DNA of 62,804 nucleotides, taken from NCBI GenBank assembly GCA_947630755.1, contig CANRIU010000008.1, forward strand, positions 1 through 62,804. Direction: 5' to 3'. This DNA comes from an uncultured Oscillospiraceae bacterium (lineage in GTDB: Bacteria > Bacillota > Clostridia > Oscillospirales > Oscillospiraceae). The translations under genes were made by a program, and so were the position numbers. Shown here in pieces: positions 37,308-43,034 of the stretch (positions within the stretch are counted from its first letter, which is position 1; each line of letters begins with the position of its first letter). The notes under the pieces were generated by a model. That model worked only from the letters and a program-made list of their open reading frames with translations. It was not told where the DNA came from and ran no database searches.

Positions 37308-38132
37308 ATGCCCAGACGGTCCCGGAAAATGAGCGAAAGCGGTATCCACCACATCATGCTCCGCGGTATTAACCGCTCCGCGATTTTCCACGACGAGGAG
37401 GACTGCGAGGTCTTTCTCCAGTACCTCTCCGAGAGCCTCACGCCCCCGCCGGCGGGACTGAGTGACGGTTTTTTTGTCACACCGGAGCCGTGCGGAGGTG
37501 GGACTAAAGAACCGTCCCTCTGTAACGCCCGCCCCGCCCAGATCTACGCCTACTGCCTCATGGGCAACCACGTCCATCTGCTCATGAAGGCCGGGGACGA
37601 GCCGCTGTCCTCGCTTTTCAAGCGCTTCGGCGTCCGGTACGTCTACTGGTACAACCACAAGTATGACCGGGTTGGCCACCTCTTTCAGGACCGCTTCAAA
37701 AGCGCCCCCGTGGAGGACGACGCCTACCTCCTGGCGGTGTACCGCTACATTGCACAGAACCCGGTGAAGGCCGGCCTGTGCGAAAAGCCCGGCAGCTACC
37801 GCTGGGCCAGCTTCGGAAACCCGAGGCCCGACCTGCGCTGCGCCCCGCTGCCCGCGGACTATACGGAGGAGCAGCTGCGGGAATACGTCCTCTCCGATCA
37901 GCCGGACCTCCACCCCTTCCCGGAGCGCGTCACCGACCGGGAGGCGGAGGCGCTGCTGAAAAAGGTGACGGGGGTAAAGTACGCAGGGGAGATGCAGGGG
38001 ATGCCCCCGGAAAAGCTCGGGGAGTATTGCGCCGCATTGGCGGGTAGAGGCGTTACACTGAGACAAATTGAACGTTTGAGCGGAATATCCCGAAGAAATT
38101 TGGCGAGATATATGGAAAGATACGGGGACTGA
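37308..38132 (+). CDS. REP-associated tyrosine transposase (RAYT, Y1_Tnp/TnpA_REP)
   Basis: 274 residues. IS200-like Y1 nuclease fold: SGIHHIMLRGINRSAIFHDEE at the start, HUH motif HVH at 88-90 (MGNHVHLLMKAG), tyrosine-bearing helix RYVYWYNHKYDRVGHLFQDR (110-129), and YIAQNPVKAGLC. A C-terminal helix-turn-helix (LRQIERLSGISRRNLARYM) follows. It nicks and moves single-stranded REP hairpins; the repeats it should use lie directly downstream. Residues about 52-73 are encoded by a REP copy inserted in frame, absent from normal family members. Confidence 0.92.
   Translation: MPRRSRKMSESGIHHIMLRGINRSAIFHDEEDCEVFLQYLSESLTPPPAGLSDGFFVTPEPCGGGTKEPSLCNARPAQIYAYCLMGNHVHLLMKAGDEPLSSLFKRFGVRYVYWYNHKYDRVGHLFQDRFKSAPVEDDAYLLAVYRYIAQNPVKAGLCEKPGSYRWASFGNPRPDLRCAPLPADYTEEQLREYVLSDQPDLHPFPERVTDREAEALLKKVTGVKYAGEMQGMPPEKLGEYCAALAGRGVTLRQIERLSGISRRNLARYMERYGD
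37462..37526 (+). repeat. REP-like unit inserted in the RAYT reading frame
   Basis: GTGACGGTTTTTTTGTCACACCGGAG opens it (shown in parts: GACGGTTTTT, GACACCGGAG in the outside copies) and AAAGAACCGTCCCTC closes it, as in the downstream REP units. It adds about 22 residues without breaking the frame. Confidence 0.8.
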
Positions 38133-38352
38133 CAGGTAAGTCTCCGCATCAAACCCACCCCGGCGTCCCAAGGGGACGGTTCTTGTGAGTCGCTTCGCGC
38201 CCCACGATTAACCGTCCCCTTGAACCGCCTCCTCAAAAAACGAAACGCAAACTGAGCAGTCTCCCTGCCTCACGGGGACGGTTTTTGTGGGACACCGGAG
38301 CGTAAGCGCAGGTGGTTCACAAGAACCGTCCCCAGTGGGGCACGCGGAGAAT
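38131..38352 (+). repeat. REP/BIME unit, tandem copy 1
   Basis: 222-bp unit starting right at the RAYT stop (GACAGGTAAGTCTCC). Contains two inverted REP pairs: AAGGGGACGGTT / AACCGTCCCCTT and GGGGACGGTTTTTGTG / CACAAGAACCGTCCCC. Confidence 0.92.
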
Positions 38353-38572
38353 GACAGGTAAGTCTCCGCATCAAATCCACCCCGGAGTCCCAAGGGGACG
38401 GTTCTTGTGAGTCGCTTCGCGCCCCACGATTAACCGTCCCCTTGAACCGCCTCCTCAAAAAACGAAACGCAAACTGAGCAGTCTCCCTGCCTCACGGGGA
38501 CGGTTTTTGTGGGACACCGGAGCGTAAGCACAGGTGGTTCACAAGAACCGTCCCCAGTGGGGCACGGTGGGA
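38353..38572 (+). repeat. REP/BIME unit, tandem copy 2
   Basis: Almost identical head-to-tail copy of the preceding unit, differing at a few bases (for example GCGCAGG to GCACAGG). It ends at CCCCAGTGGGGCACG. Confidence 0.92.
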
Positions 38573-38611
38573 GGGTCAGTTAAAGTATGTCAGGTCGCGA
38601 CGGAAGTTGCC

Positions 38612-38686
38612 CAAAAGAACCGTCCCCTTGTATCTTCAAAAGAACCGTCCCCTTGTATCTTCAAAAGAACCGTCCCCTTGTATCTA
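38612..38686 (+). repeat. Three tandem 25-bp REP half-units
   Basis: CAAAAGAACCGTCCCCTTGT plus ATCTT repeated three times at 38612, 38637 and 38662; the third ends one base before the TGA of the pilin-like gene. Confidence 0.92.
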
Positions 38687-40015
38687 TCAATTCCCGCCAA
38701 ACAGGACATCAAGAATTGTGGAGAGGTCTTCGTCGCTAAACCCCTTTTCCAGTGCGCCGCTGCTTGTAAGTGACTCACTATTATCATTGATTGCCCGCAT
38801 TGCGGCGATATATCCGTTTATATCGTCCTTACCGCCGCCGTTTTCCAAATAATCGGTGAACATATCCAGATTTCCATTATTGGGATCGGTCAGTACAGCT
38901 GCCGCACTTTTTACATTCAGCAGCGCGGTTATGTCTGGGTTGGCGGTGTTTAGACCGTCAGAAATGGATTTATAATATTCCGCCACGGTCGTTTCGCTTC
39001 CGTCGTCAAGTACAATTTTGTCGCTTCCTCTATCAGAATTGGCATAGCCTGTCAGGACACCGTAAACTAACGCGGCTGTGGGTACAAGAGCAGTTGTATC
39101 ACTTCCAAACCCAAGAAGTTCGTAATCTCCCGTAGTCACCGCATTCATGACAGTATCGGCGGTCAGGTCTTTAGACTCTTGAGCAACGCTCATTACGATT
39201 GCGTTTAATTTTGCGTTGTTATATGCGTTGACAGCCGCTATATAACCTGGGTCATCTTCACCGCCATCATAATCAGCGGGGTTCGGAGCGGCAGTGTATC
39301 CGTTATCGCTTAAAAGTTGCTGCGCACTCGGTGACAGAAGCATGTCAATAAGTGCTGGAGAAAGGCTTTGCAATACTTTCCCCGCAGATTGTACAACGTG
39401 GTCTACCTCACCCAAAAGTTCGGGCATGGACATATTTTCACCAAATGAAGAGTTGGCAAAATTCTCTTTATCTTCACCTTCAAGCACATACTCGAATTTA
39501 TCTCCGTTCGGCATTTCGACTTCAACGACCGTCTTTCCATTCTTTTCAACAGGAGGACGGATTTTTACACCACTTGCGGTTGTAATCGTACCGTCGGGGA
39601 GTTCTCCGATAAACCCCCCTTTGTTGCGGTCATATCCGAGGCTCACAAAGCATTTAAAATTCTTATCTTCGTTTCCCTTATAGTACTTCATGAACGTATC
39701 GGTCAAATTCGTAAGCTCTACATCGTCTTTATTGCCGTAACCAATTTCACTGATTACTCCGTCAACAAGTTCTGCTTTGCCCTGCTCCGGCAGGCCCGCT
39801 ATGCCCTCCTCGGCGCAGGCCGAGGCGAAAGCGGTATTCACCGCTCCCAGAAGCTCCAGGTCCGCGGCCTCCCGCGCTTTTTCTATGTACCCGCTGTACG
39901 CCACTGCGCCCACGCCCGCCAGTATCGCCAGCACCGCAATGACCACCACCAGCTCCACCAGCGTAAAGCCCGCGTCGCCGTATCGGCGAACAGGTTTTGA
40001 AGAATCCCGTCTCAT
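38687..40015 (-). CDS. Pilin-like surface protein with type IV prepilin leader
   Basis: 442 residues, ATG at 40015 with GGGAGGT 7 bases upstream. Class III leader MRRDSSKPVRRYGDAG is cut before F17 (GFTLVELVVVIAVLAILAGV), with the conserved Glu at mature position 5; followed by a helix (GYIEKAREAADLELLGAV). The rest is a large hydrophilic domain without cysteine pairs I can assign, much bigger than a normal major pilin, so it may be a minor pilin or adhesin. No pilus assembly genes are nearby. Codons are GC-rich up to about residue 78 and then clearly AT-richer. Upstream is the invertible promoter segment, facing away here. Confidence 0.88.
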   Translation of the reverse strand: MRRDSSKPVRRYGDAGFTLVELVVVIAVLAILAGVGAVAYSGYIEKAREAADLELLGAVNTAFASACAEEGIAGLPEQGKAELVDGVISEIGYGNKDDVELTNLTDTFMKYYKGNEDKNFKCFVSLGYDRNKGGFIGELPDGTITTASGVKIRPPVEKNGKTVVEVEMPNGDKFEYVLEGEDKENFANSSFGENMSMPELLGEVDHVVQSAGKVLQSLSPALIDMLLSPSAQQLLSDNGYTAAPNPADYDGGEDDPGYIAAVNAYNNAKLNAIVMSVAQESKDLTADTVMNAVTTGDYELLGFGSDTTALVPTAALVYGVLTGYANSDRGSDKIVLDDGSETTVAEYYKSISDGLNTANPDITALLNVKSAAAVLTDPNNGNLDMFTDYLENGGGKDDINGYIAAMRAINDNSESLTSSGALEKGFSDEDLSTILDVLFGGN

Positions 40016-40102
40016 GCTTTTTACCTCCCTGTAAAATATTCGTCAGAGTGAATAAAAATATTGAAGAACCCGCCCTCAGCCCGCATCTCCCCGCCGGGAA
40101 CG

Positions 40103-40128
40103 GCGACATTATAAATATAATGTCACCA
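40103..40128 (+). repeat. Left inverted repeat (recombination site)
   Basis: Nearly palindromic core GACATTATA-AA-TATAATGTC with flanking GC and ACCA. Identical over 26 bp to the reverse complement of 40398-40423. Two half-sites around a 2-bp asymmetric centre is the layout of tyrosine recombinase sites. Confidence 0.88.
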
Positions 40129-40324
40129 CTTCCCCGCCCCGGGGCCTGCCCCGGGGCGCACGCCGGGGGGCGGATTTTCGCCGATTTGACGGCAGGGCGG
40201 TGTTTTGGACATGCTTTCGCCCGCCCTCGCCGGACTTTTAAAAACAAAGGTCCGGAGGGGGCGCGTCGCGGCGTGCTCTCTTATGTATCCGAATGAAAAT
40301 TTTTACGTTTTTTCTCGCCAGCTA

Positions 40325-40353
40325 TTGACATTTTCGTCATTTAGCCGTATATT
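40325..40353 (+). promoter_or_regulatory. Sigma-A promoter inside the invertible segment
   Basis: TTGACA, 17-bp spacer, TATATT (TATAAG follows 3 bases later). Points right, into the 3' end of the recombinase gene on its antisense strand. Confidence 0.8.
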
Positions 40354-40397
40354 TATAAGGAAGAATTTCATGAGGCTTGCGTTTTCCCGCCGTTGAA

Positions 40398-40423
40398 TGG
40401 TGACATTATATTTATAATGTCGC
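40398..40423 (-). repeat. Right inverted repeat (recombination site)
   Basis: Reverse complement is identical to the left repeat; here the 2-bp centre reads TT. Its last base is also the last base of the recombinase stop codon. Confidence 0.88.
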
Positions 40424-41313
40424 TATATTTTTTTGCCCTTTTTCCGCTTTTTCCGGCGCGGAGGTCCCGGGGGCTCGGGGCGTCCCGCAAGGCCAAGGCC
40501 CTCGATGATGCACCGCTGCTCCTCGCAGGGCGCCTTGAGGTATATGCGCGTCGTCTCCATGCTCCCGTGGCCCAGTATCGCCGCCAGCGCCGCCACGTCC
40601 CGGGTCCTGCCGTAGTAGCTTCTGGCAAAGAGCTTCCTTAGGTTGTGGGGAAAGACCTTCCCCGGGGCGACCCCGGCCCGCCGTGCCGTGCGTTTCATCA
40701 TCGCCCAGACGCTCCTTCGCCCGATGGGCCCTCCGTCCCGCCCGAGAAACACGGGGCCGGAGACGATGCCCTGCTCCCCGGCAAATTTCAGAAGCTTTTT
40801 CCGCAGCTGCCCCGGGATGAGTATCTCCCGGGTCTTGTTTTTGCACCTCACCCGCGCCCGCCCCTCTCTCGCCGCCTCCACGGTGATGTAGGCAAGCTCC
40901 GAGACCCGGATGCCCGTGCCGCCGATAGTCTCGATGATAAGCCTGTGCCGGGGCCTCGCGGCGGCGGTCAGCGCGTCGTACTCCGCCCGGGTGAGGCTCC
41001 GGTCCTCCGGGGCGAAGGGGCTGGGCTGGCTCCTCACCCGCTTTGTCCGGCAGTCCGTCCACCCGGCGAATTTGAAGAACGCATTCAGCGACGCGAGGAT
41101 GGTGTTGACGCTCCCCGCCGCGTACCCCTGGGCACACAGCCGCTCCTTGTACCCCCGTGTCCCCTCCGCGCTGGCAACCCCTTCACCCAGGTAAAGCGCG
41201 TAGCACTTCACATCGTGAAGGTATCTCTCAATGGTGTGGCGGCTCCGCTCCTCAGATATGAGGTGCAGATAAAAAAGTGACATCAGTTTTTTTGTGATTT
41301 TTCTCTGAATCAT
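40423..41313 (-). CDS. Tyrosine site-specific recombinase (probable DNA invertase)
   Basis: 296 residues, AAGGAGATCGAT then ATG. N-terminal SAM-like core-binding domain (LMSLFYLHLISEERSRHTIE), then catalytic domain with the complete set: R136 (GGTGIRVSEL), Lys near 158-160 (CKNKTRE), H223-x-x-R226 (PHNLRKLF), H249 (LGHGS) and nucleophile Y258 (TTRIYLK). XerC/D-like length. Its stop codon touches the right inverted repeat, so it is the obvious enzyme for the switch. A plain phage integrase is less likely since no att sites or phage genes are adjacent. Confidence 0.9.
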   Translation of the reverse strand: MIQRKITKKLMSLFYLHLISEERSRHTIERYLHDVKCYALYLGEGVASAEGTRGYKERLCAQGYAAGSVNTILASLNAFFKFAGWTDCRTKRVRSQPSPFAPEDRSLTRAEYDALTAAARPRHRLIIETIGGTGIRVSELAYITVEAAREGRARVRCKNKTREILIPGQLRKKLLKFAGEQGIVSGPVFLGRDGGPIGRRSVWAMMKRTARRAGVAPGKVFPHNLRKLFARSYYGRTRDVAALAAILGHGSMETTRIYLKAPCEEQRCIIEGLGLAGRPEPPGPPRRKKRKKGKKI

Positions 41314-41507
41314 ATCGATCTCCTTGCAGGTTTACCCAATTTTCTTCTTGAAACAGCGAAAATATATGATATTATTTGAATATAATTTAAAATTTAAAAG
41401 AAAAAAACGCGCATTTACCATATTTTGGGCTATAAATCCGCCCCCGAAGCCCAAATGAACGATATTTGGAGAAAAATCCGCCCCGTCCCGTTTTGGAGTG
41501 AAAAAGT

Positions 41508-43034
41508 ATGGAAAAATACGAAAATATCAAAAAAGAATACGATTCTCTGCTTGAATATCTTGAAAAAACCTGCCCCGGCGCCCGGGACGACTTCGAAAAA
41601 TATTATATCGCCTGCGCCCTTCGCATCTGGTCCGGCAACGAGCTCTACTCCGATTCCTACGGCGAGCTCCTCAAGGTGATTCAGCGCGGGAAAGTTTCTG
41701 ATGAAAAAGTGCACGGTGAAACCTTTTCTGTGCGGCAAATCGTAACCGCTTTGGGCTGTTGCGGCGAACCGGAGAGAAAGCTGCTCGTGCCGGGTTTTTA
41801 CCGCGCCATGGTCAGAAGCGACCTTAAAACCCGCAGCGCCCTCTCAGCGGGATTCATCGAGCAGTACAGCCGCCTCCTCGCCTCCACCGCCCTTGTGAAC
41901 GGCGACTTCACTCTCGAGGAGGCCCGCGCGCTGTCGGAGATAACCGGGGGCCTTGCGGCCTACGCCAAAGGCTCGAGGGTGAACACCGGGGCCGCGCCGG
42001 ACTACAACGGGCTTATTACGGAGAGGCTGTATGACAGCTACTACCGCGCCCCGGCGCCCCGTAAGGAGGAGCCCGTCGAGGGCGGCAGGTCCGCCGGGAC
42101 GCCGGAGGGCGAAAAGCCCGGCTCGGAGACGATAAACATAAGCTTCAGCATAGAGCCCGGCTGGCCCGGCATCTCCCCTCCCCCGGCGGAGTCCCCGGCT
42201 GTCCGAGAGCCGGAGGAAGAGTCTCTGGAGAGCCTTCTTCGGGAGCTTGACGGCCTTGTGGGGCTGGAGGGCGTGAAACGGGACGTGCACAGCCTCATGA
42301 ATTTCATAAAAATCGCAAAGCTCCGCCAGTCCCGGGGGATGAAGGTCCCCACCATCTCCTACCACCTGGTATTCACCGGAAATCCGGGGACGGGCAAGAC
42401 GACTGTGGCGAGGCTCTATTACCAGATGGGCCTTCTGCCAAAGGGGCAGTTTGTGGAGACGGACCGGGCGGCACTGGTTGCGGGGTACCTGGGCCAGACG
42501 GCGATAAAGACGAAAAAGGTCATAGATCAGGCCATGGGCGGCGTGCTGTTCATTGACGAGGCGTATTCCCTCGCCGCCGACGCGGAGGACAGCTACGGGC
42601 GCGAGGCTGTTGAGACGCTTTTGAAGGCCATGGAGGACCACCGGGATGAGCTGGTGGTGATAGTCGCGGGCTACACGGAGCTCATGCACAGGTTCATAAG
42701 CTCAAACCCGGGGCTCTCCTCAAGATTCAGCAAGTATTTTGAGTTCAAAGACTACTCGGGAGCGGAGCTTCTTGAGATTTTCCGGGGGTTTTGCGCGAAA
42801 AACGGCTATCGGCTGGATGAGCGTGCCGCCCTGGTGCTGGGCGCGGAGTTTAAGCGGCTTTTTGAGAGCCGCGACGAGCACTTCGGCAACGCCAGGACCG
42901 CCCGGAACATATTCGAGAGGGCCATAAACGCCCAGGCCGACCGGGTGGCGCAGCAGCCGGAGATAGCCGACGCGGACCTGGAGCTGCTGTGCTTTGAGGA
43001 TGTCAAAGCGGCGCTGGGAGGTGACGTGTCATGA
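41508..43034 (+). CDS. CbbX/CfxQ-type AAA+ ATPase
   Basis: 508 residues. N-terminal helical domain (1-165) of unknown type, a Pro/Glu-rich linker (about 185-235), then a single AAA+ module: LDGLVGLEGVKRDVHSLMNF, Walker A GNPGTGKTT (about 292), Walker B GVLFIDEAYSL, sensor VVIVAGY and arginine-finger region NPGLSSRFSKYF. Family members remodel protein complexes (CbbX, SpoVK). First gene of an eight-gene operon and joined by ATGA to the next, whose product is a likely partner. AT-rich promoter region upstream. Confidence 0.9.
   Translation: MEKYENIKKEYDSLLEYLEKTCPGARDDFEKYYIACALRIWSGNELYSDSYGELLKVIQRGKVSDEKVHGETFSVRQIVTALGCCGEPERKLLVPGFYRAMVRSDLKTRSALSAGFIEQYSRLLASTALVNGDFTLEEARALSEITGGLAAYAKGSRVNTGAAPDYNGLITERLYDSYYRAPAPRKEEPVEGGRSAGTPEGEKPGSETINISFSIEPGWPGISPPPAESPAVREPEEESLESLLRELDGLVGLEGVKRDVHSLMNFIKIAKLRQSRGMKVPTISYHLVFTGNPGTGKTTVARLYYQMGLLPKGQFVETDRAALVAGYLGQTAIKTKKVIDQAMGGVLFIDEAYSLAADAEDSYGREAVETLLKAMEDHRDELVVIVAGYTELMHRFISSNPGLSSRFSKYFEFKDYSGAELLEIFRGFCAKNGYRLDERAALVLGAEFKRLFESRDEHFGNARTARNIFERAINAQADRVAQQPEIADADLELLCFEDVKAALGGDVS

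Follow-up and report, generated by a model that had tools for sequence, protein, structure and literature searches.

A candidate phase-variation cassette joining an invertible promoter, a tyrosine recombinase gene and a type IV prepilin gene in an uncultured Oscillospiraceae bacterium

Genes, repeats and promoter at the locus

The window analysed here, a 62,804-nt stretch of DNA from an uncultured Oscillospiraceae bacterium, contains two genes on the reverse strand separated by a short segment bounded by inverted repeats. The first gene (38687..40015, -) encodes a 442-residue prepilin with the N-terminal cleavage/methylation motif GFTLVELVVVIAVLAIL (Pfam N_methyl, 3.3e-7), and a ribosome-binding-site-like AGGGAGGT was read from the sequence 5' of its ATG (40023..40030, -). 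The second gene (40423..41313, -) encodes a tyrosine recombinase of 296 residues, XerC/D-like but falling under the Xer equivalog cut-offs. Its product matches Phage_integrase (6.2e-20) and the SAM-like N-domain (2.8e-8), and residues R136, K158, H223, R226, H249 and Y258, which we take to be the catalytic set of a tyrosine recombinase, are invariant across 12 homologues. The gene is intact, and its assignment to the tyrosine recombinases is based on the Phage_integrase domain together with the six conserved residues, which the first-pass annotation had correctly considered complete. A chromosomal Xer resolvase was rejected as a candidate (119.9 bits versus 220 for NF040815, 93.8 versus 335.15 for XerC and 89 versus 329.6 for XerD), and so was a defence gene, PADLOC returning no match for the recombinase.

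The segment between both genes measures 321 bp including the repeat arms (40103..40423), as delimited by the repeats and by comparison with relatives. Its left arm (40103..40128) contains the core ACATTATAAATATAATGT and is followed by no U-tract on the pilin side, and its right arm (40398..40423) was defined by arm complementarity. The arms are complementary at 26 of 26 positions and enclose 269 nt, so the perfect 26-bp inverted repeats described in the first-pass annotation are real, and the recombinase stop codon (40423-40425) does adjoin the right repeat, sharing one base with it. Each arm is a near-palindrome, ACATTAT-AAAT-ATAATGT within GC..CA, with the asymmetry confined to the centre, and the 2.19-Mb assembly contains the 20-bp core pattern GACATTATAWWTATAATGTC nowhere but at these two sites. 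Recombinase gene, segment and prepilin gene follow each other in this order and are all co-oriented (-), with the pilin start located 88 bp past the left arm.

Within the segment, TTGACA-17-TATATT (40325..40353, +) matches a sigma-70-type promoter at 11 of 12 positions and is directed toward the recombinase. This promoter faces the wrong way for the pilin, as had been claimed. A scan of positions 39950-41550 returned five promoter-like sites, versus 1.2 (sd 1.2) in shuffles; a second promoter-like site on the forward strand (40400-40429, 10/12) overlaps the right repeat, and no pilin-directed site was found at the thresholds used between the pilin ATG and the right repeat of the window. By simple arithmetic, inversion would move the promoter to approximately 40173-40201, with a start near 40166 and the ATG at 40015, in agreement with the distance of about 150 nt proposed earlier. 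The locus presents two of the features of an inverton, namely repeats bounding a short segment and a promoter inside it.

A G+C-rich folded stretch (40154..40280, +) was detected 5' of the promoter, on the promoter's strand, with a fold z of -3.24 and in a loose scan. In three related segments (L118, L120 and L127), a highly stable hairpin with a run of T (-57 kcal/mol) is likewise present on the promoter's strand, upstream of the promoter. Such an element would travel with the promoter, and a role as insulator is possible. Searches for structured RNAs in Rfam gave no match up to E 0.5 across 38000-42000. On the far side of the prepilin gene, a REP-like repeat core, GGGACGGTTCTT, occurs eight times in 37507-38665, adjoining a REP-associated transposase-like ORF (37308-38132) that scores 58.5 bits, under the NCBIfam cut-off of 80. 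The same REP-like core is also present near many other pilin cassettes.

Related cassettes, their cargo and the orientation of the segment

The site pattern ACATTATNNATATAATGT was found in 7 of 34 same-genus genomes, in which 25 recombinase/repeat/promoter cassettes with both repeats were identified: two in the window's genome, 12 in G020, one in G270, two in G410, three in G412, four in G416 and one in G422. A dozen cassettes with complete repeats thus occur in one related genome. The recombinase faces the repeats in 25/25, and the cargo is a prepilin in 24/25, the remaining cassette (L118) being cut by a contig end. A SpoVK-like ATPase gene and the next ORF, which lie next to the cassette in the window, were considered as parts of a larger conserved element; a search of 25 loci, one of which (L119) lacks a cassette, located neither of them next to any of the 24 other cassettes, and hence no larger element is conserved there.

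The best promoter is directed toward the recombinase, an orientation here termed OFF, in 22 of these 25 cassettes, and toward the cargo (ON) in L036, L109 and L127, where it sits mirrored, at 96-101 from the segment edge. The segments of L120 and L127 are identical in 327 of 336 alignment columns when one of them is reversed, versus 165 of 355 when unreversed, and their flanks are collinear, with 89.7% identity over 1112 nt on the recombinase side (left) and 88.5% over 227 nt on the pilin side (right). The segments of L118 and L127 also align in reverse, with 97.9% identity over 288 nt. Both orientations are therefore observed between related genomes, which belong to different species. At the level of sequence comparison, these mirrored promoters and opposite orientations support the original interpretation of an invertible promoter and show that inversion occurred between lineages. 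The window segment aligns directly with copies in the OFF state, and its alignment to L127, which is ON, requires reversal, so the reading of this assembly as OFF holds; the two other cassettes of the window's genome (L033 and L034) are likewise OFF. In addition, the segment and pilin leader of L040 and L128 are 93% identical to those of L127 and their recombinases only 67%, a mismatch indicating that recombinase and cargo parts have been exchanged.

The N_methyl motif was identified in 19/19 cargo proteins scanned, only one of which has another match, a weak one, and no adhesin domain was recognised among them. When aligned, these 19 pilins diverge past the first 60-110 residues. Contig C40 of the window's genome carries two T2SSE ATPases, a T2SSF protein, a prepilin peptidase and four prepilins in one cluster, and the N-terminal motif and this machinery together identify the cargo as a type IV prepilin. 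The nearest relatives of the window pilin (69%), encoded in G270:C37 and G416:C59, follow a row of other prepilin genes, and neither a recombinase nor repeats were found beside them. These switch-less prepilin rows, together with the machinery on C40, suggest that the switched gene is a copy of an ordinary type IV pilus component, the product of which may be displayed. In another locus, the prepilin of a likely pilus operon (L131:6231-7229) bears a C-terminal CHAP (peptidoglycan hydrolase-like) domain.

Relatives of the recombinase at E <= 1e-30 are present in at least 113 of 400 same-family genomes, a lower bound with at most five candidates scored per genome. The set picked by recombinase alone comprises 123 loci including the window and leaves out 22 loci picked by repeat pattern; viral loci L223-L229 (<=33% identity) were excluded from all counts. 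Among recombinase-picked loci with at least 950 nt downstream, paired repeats lie within 260 nt in 98/101, versus 5/115 in a mirrored-upstream control. Three loci with enough DNA lack repeats (L051, L170 and L193). When the 22 repeat-pattern-picked loci are included, the figures become 108/111 for repeats, 6/127 for the control and 5/491 for random positions. A strong one-sided promoter was detected in 61/112 segments, versus 19/560 shuffled segments, with a median distance of 96 nt (IQR 93-99) between the -35 and the exit edge. These 112 segments divide into 79 OFF, 20 ON and 13 without a clear promoter direction (strong calls, 54 OFF and 7 ON), an OFF bias to which no simple probability can be assigned because the 112 entries are related. 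Contig ends fall within 300 nt after the recombinase in 19/123 loci and before it in 4/123; the downstream excess fits mixed orientations, and near-identical cassettes may produce the same effect.

Several other kinds of cargo were observed in this wider family. In L050, L054, L185 and L219 (and, by eye, in L065 and L070) the gene under the switch encodes a second recombinase of the tyrosine type; one recombinase may thus be switching another. The cargo in L188:2949-5096 and L194:1483-3515, and also in L052 and L175, is a helicase of the ResIII/DEAD type that also has helicase-associated domains and may be a phase-variable enzyme of defence or DNA processing. According to motif labels, L140, L143, L169, L182, L187, L207 and L064 include signal peptidase I-like and TasA-like fibre proteins in their cargo, with Peptidase_S26 found in L207 and the isolates Cuneatibacter caecimuris, Holdemania sp. 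and Hespellia stercorisuis among the loci with this type of cargo. A pyruvate:ferredoxin oxidoreductase gene located 506 nt past an OFF-type segment (L160:5679-8834) may be a chance neighbour. Lastly, eleven IMG/VR contigs (L212-L222) encode the recombinase at 41-58% identity, some of them with repeats, which suggests that phages may carry the cassette too, or that it may sit at prophage edges.

Across 94 loci, repeat-arm identity tracks recombinase identity (Mantel rho 0.49, 0/999 permutations), also for pairs less than 70% identical (rho 0.45). The central 6 bp contain one to three asymmetric pairs in 108/108 located cores, and the outer pairs are symmetric in 94-104 of the 108. The three cassettes of the window's genome present three different core centres, AAAT, TGAT and TTCG. 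In a tree of the 94 recombinases, in which the bootstrap had not settled, all 26 entries labelled pilin, plus L118 and L120, which are pilin cassettes missed by the label, share one side of a branch supported at 100/98.

These data bear on the possibility that flipping of the cassette has ceased in living cells, its orientation having been fixed long ago and species differing by rare ancestral events. In favour of such a scenario, the differences in orientation are seen between species only, and there is a bias to OFF, found in 24/28 pilin cassettes. Against it, the window repeats are still perfect, the recombinase frame is open with its catalytic residues kept, arms co-vary with recombinases, and L118/L120 differ in orientation from L127 at about 98% segment identity. 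We hence consider a frozen orientation improbable. The neighbouring recombinase very probably flips the promoter segment.

A putative terminator at the crossover site

On the forward strand, the right repeat can fold into a hairpin with a 13-bp stem (-14.4 kcal/mol) that is followed by an A and seven U (40397..40434, +), where the OFF transcript probably terminates. For the left repeat the folding energy is -23.5 kcal/mol, and this repeat has no U-tract. With a U-tract defined as at least five T in the eight positions following the hairpin, 28 pilin cassettes (the 25 described above plus L133, L162 and L167) present it on the recombinase side in 26/28 and on the cargo side in 0/28; according to the recombinase tree, these represent about ten lineages and are not independent cases. 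Among all 108 located cores, the tract follows on the recombinase side in 54 and on the cargo side in 13, with random 14-mers giving 27/216, and outside the pilin clade it is weaker (28/80 on the recombinase side versus 13/80 on the cargo side). Given the position of the tract, transcription from the OFF promoter probably meets a terminator.

In the window, the U-tract is formed by the end of the recombinase gene itself (GCA AAA AAA TAA). AAA predominates over AAG among the lysine codons of the last six (46 versus 13), as opposed to 154 versus 407 in the gene body, and in L123, L126 and L133, where the frame stops sooner, the tract GGGCAAAAAAATAA is kept as non-coding sequence. This codon bias at the gene end and the retention of a non-coding tract speak for selection on the nucleic acid. 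Furthermore, the two pilin cassettes lacking the tract (L036 and L109) are both ON and 24 of the 26 having it are OFF (Fisher 0.016, in a small sample and with relatedness ignored). The right repeat hence probably doubles as terminator of the OFF transcript, the main alternative being that the tract serves as an A-tract for DNA bending.

The same evidence is relevant to a different account of the switch, in which the segment does invert and the recombinase is its main target, with antisense RNA in the OFF state regulating recombination and pilin control being secondary. The promoter does face the 3' end of the recombinase gene in most assemblies (79 of 112 segments), but the U-tract lies on exactly the side where it should halt such an antisense RNA. 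Moreover, the far side of the promoter holds cargo with a ribosome binding site and not the recombinase, and the recombinases of 28/28 pilin cassettes fall on one branch, as expected if the cargo matters. An antisense switch acting mainly on the recombinase is, in our assessment, very unlikely. It is extremely unlikely that the repeats are a mere bidirectional terminator or protein-binding site next to the integrase of a mobile element, as could be suggested by the terminator score of the right repeat and the REP-like repeats and RAYT-like gene nearby, since repeats follow the recombinase far more often than in the mirrored control, are always paired around a promoter-bearing segment and include segments found reversed.

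Transcription on the opposite strand was also considered. A loose scan of the strand shared by recombinase and pilin found no terminator in 6/22 OFF cassettes, and the sole terminator-like match on this strand in the window is T-rich and lies inside the left repeat. The co-orientation of both genes and the sparsity of terminators on their shared strand make read-through into the pilin possible in the OFF state, and low pilin expression could thus arise from transcription originating in the recombinase gene or its promoter.

Proposed switch and its relation to known systems

The region 38687-41313 is best explained as a self-contained phase-variation cassette, a conclusion that we hold with considerable confidence. 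The recombinase, presumably as a tetramer, would bind the palindromic ACATTAT-N4-ATAATGT cores and flip the 321-bp segment, and the asymmetric core centre should favour inversion over deletion. In the OFF orientation, the promoter would fire toward the recombinase and the transcript would probably end soon past the right repeat, at the hairpin and U-tract, leaving the pilin with a ribosome binding site and no visible promoter of its own. Inversion to ON would place the promoter roughly 150 nt 5' of the pilin ATG, from where transcription would read through the left repeat, which lacks a U-tract. The large prepilin could then be processed and displayed by the type IV pilus machinery that this genome encodes, and such switching would presumably benefit the bacterium.

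Promoter inversion is a well-established mechanism of phase variation, with capsules, flagella and chaperone-usher fimbriae among the structures it controls. In Bacteroides fragilis, multiple invertible promoters with capsule cargo are under the control of one global invertase, Mpi. The cassettes described here share with this system the presence of many separately switched surface structures per genome, but have one recombinase per cassette and prepilins as cargo. In Escherichia coli, fimS is a promoter segment of about 314 bp that is switched ON and OFF by the tyrosine recombinases FimB and FimE and controls a chaperone-usher fimbria. Like fimS (PMC9993118), the cassette in the window combines a promoter segment, probably flipped by a tyrosine recombinase, with pilus-type cargo and predicted ON and OFF states; unlike fimS, it has a single recombinase instead of two, long palindromic repeats, a type IV prepilin and a putative terminator at the repeat. 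With one recombinase and a prepilin in place of a recombinase pair and chaperone-usher cargo, it does not belong to the fim type.

The cwpV switch of Clostridium difficile, as presented in PMC2784873, also involves a clostridial surface protein, recombinase-driven DNA inversion and an intrinsic terminator for the OFF state. Its promoter lies outside the segment, the proposed OFF terminator is located in the cargo transcript and the recombinase RecV is remote, whereas the window has its promoter inside the segment and a putative terminator toward the recombinase, the U-tract of which lies beyond the segment. A cwpV-type switch was consequently rejected. Invertible promoters beside a tyrosine recombinase, the class in which we place the present cassette, are already known in gut Clostridia from the hCom2 study (PMC11892184), where 32/33 invertons of group 139, associated with invertase group 35, belong to Clostridia and inversion was called from reads. 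Compared by description only, that group resembles the present cassette in its clostridial host, its invertible segment and a tyrosine-type recombinase within 5 kb; the cargo in the window is a prepilin, and the words pili and pilus are absent from the main text of the hCom2 study. As regards the cargo, PilB of Streptococcus sanguinis is described as a modular type IV pilin (PMC8179133) and is similarly a large pilin with an extra module, unlike the 19 cargo proteins scanned here in that no adhesin domain was recognised in these. In the open-licence literature, no match was seen for a clostridial switch that makes a type IV pilin phase-variable, for a set of multiple prepilin cassettes that each have their own recombinase, or for a terminator shared with a recombination site, which is weak evidence of absence.

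Taken as a whole, the results lead us to lean slightly towards a broader proposal. A genus of gut Oscillospiraceae would keep an arsenal of prepilins, with 12 complete-repeat cassettes in one genome, each under its own switch and recombinase, from which one clone could generate many pilus compositions. The recombination site would contribute one half of an intrinsic terminator, the U-tract of which is located beyond the segment, toward the recombinase; a single DNA word would then serve as crossover site, as OFF stop and as ON read-through leader. The terminator would explain how a promoter that is always active is kept, in the OFF orientation, from driving antisense transcription of its own recombinase gene. 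This idea is directly testable, and family members exist in isolates (Cuneatibacter caecimuris, Hespellia stercorisuis and Holdemania). If the proposal is true, type IV prepilins would be under inversion control in many copies, with a dedicated recombinase each, in common and mostly uncultured gut Clostridia, which would give a commensal a simple genetic means of displaying pili in many combinations.
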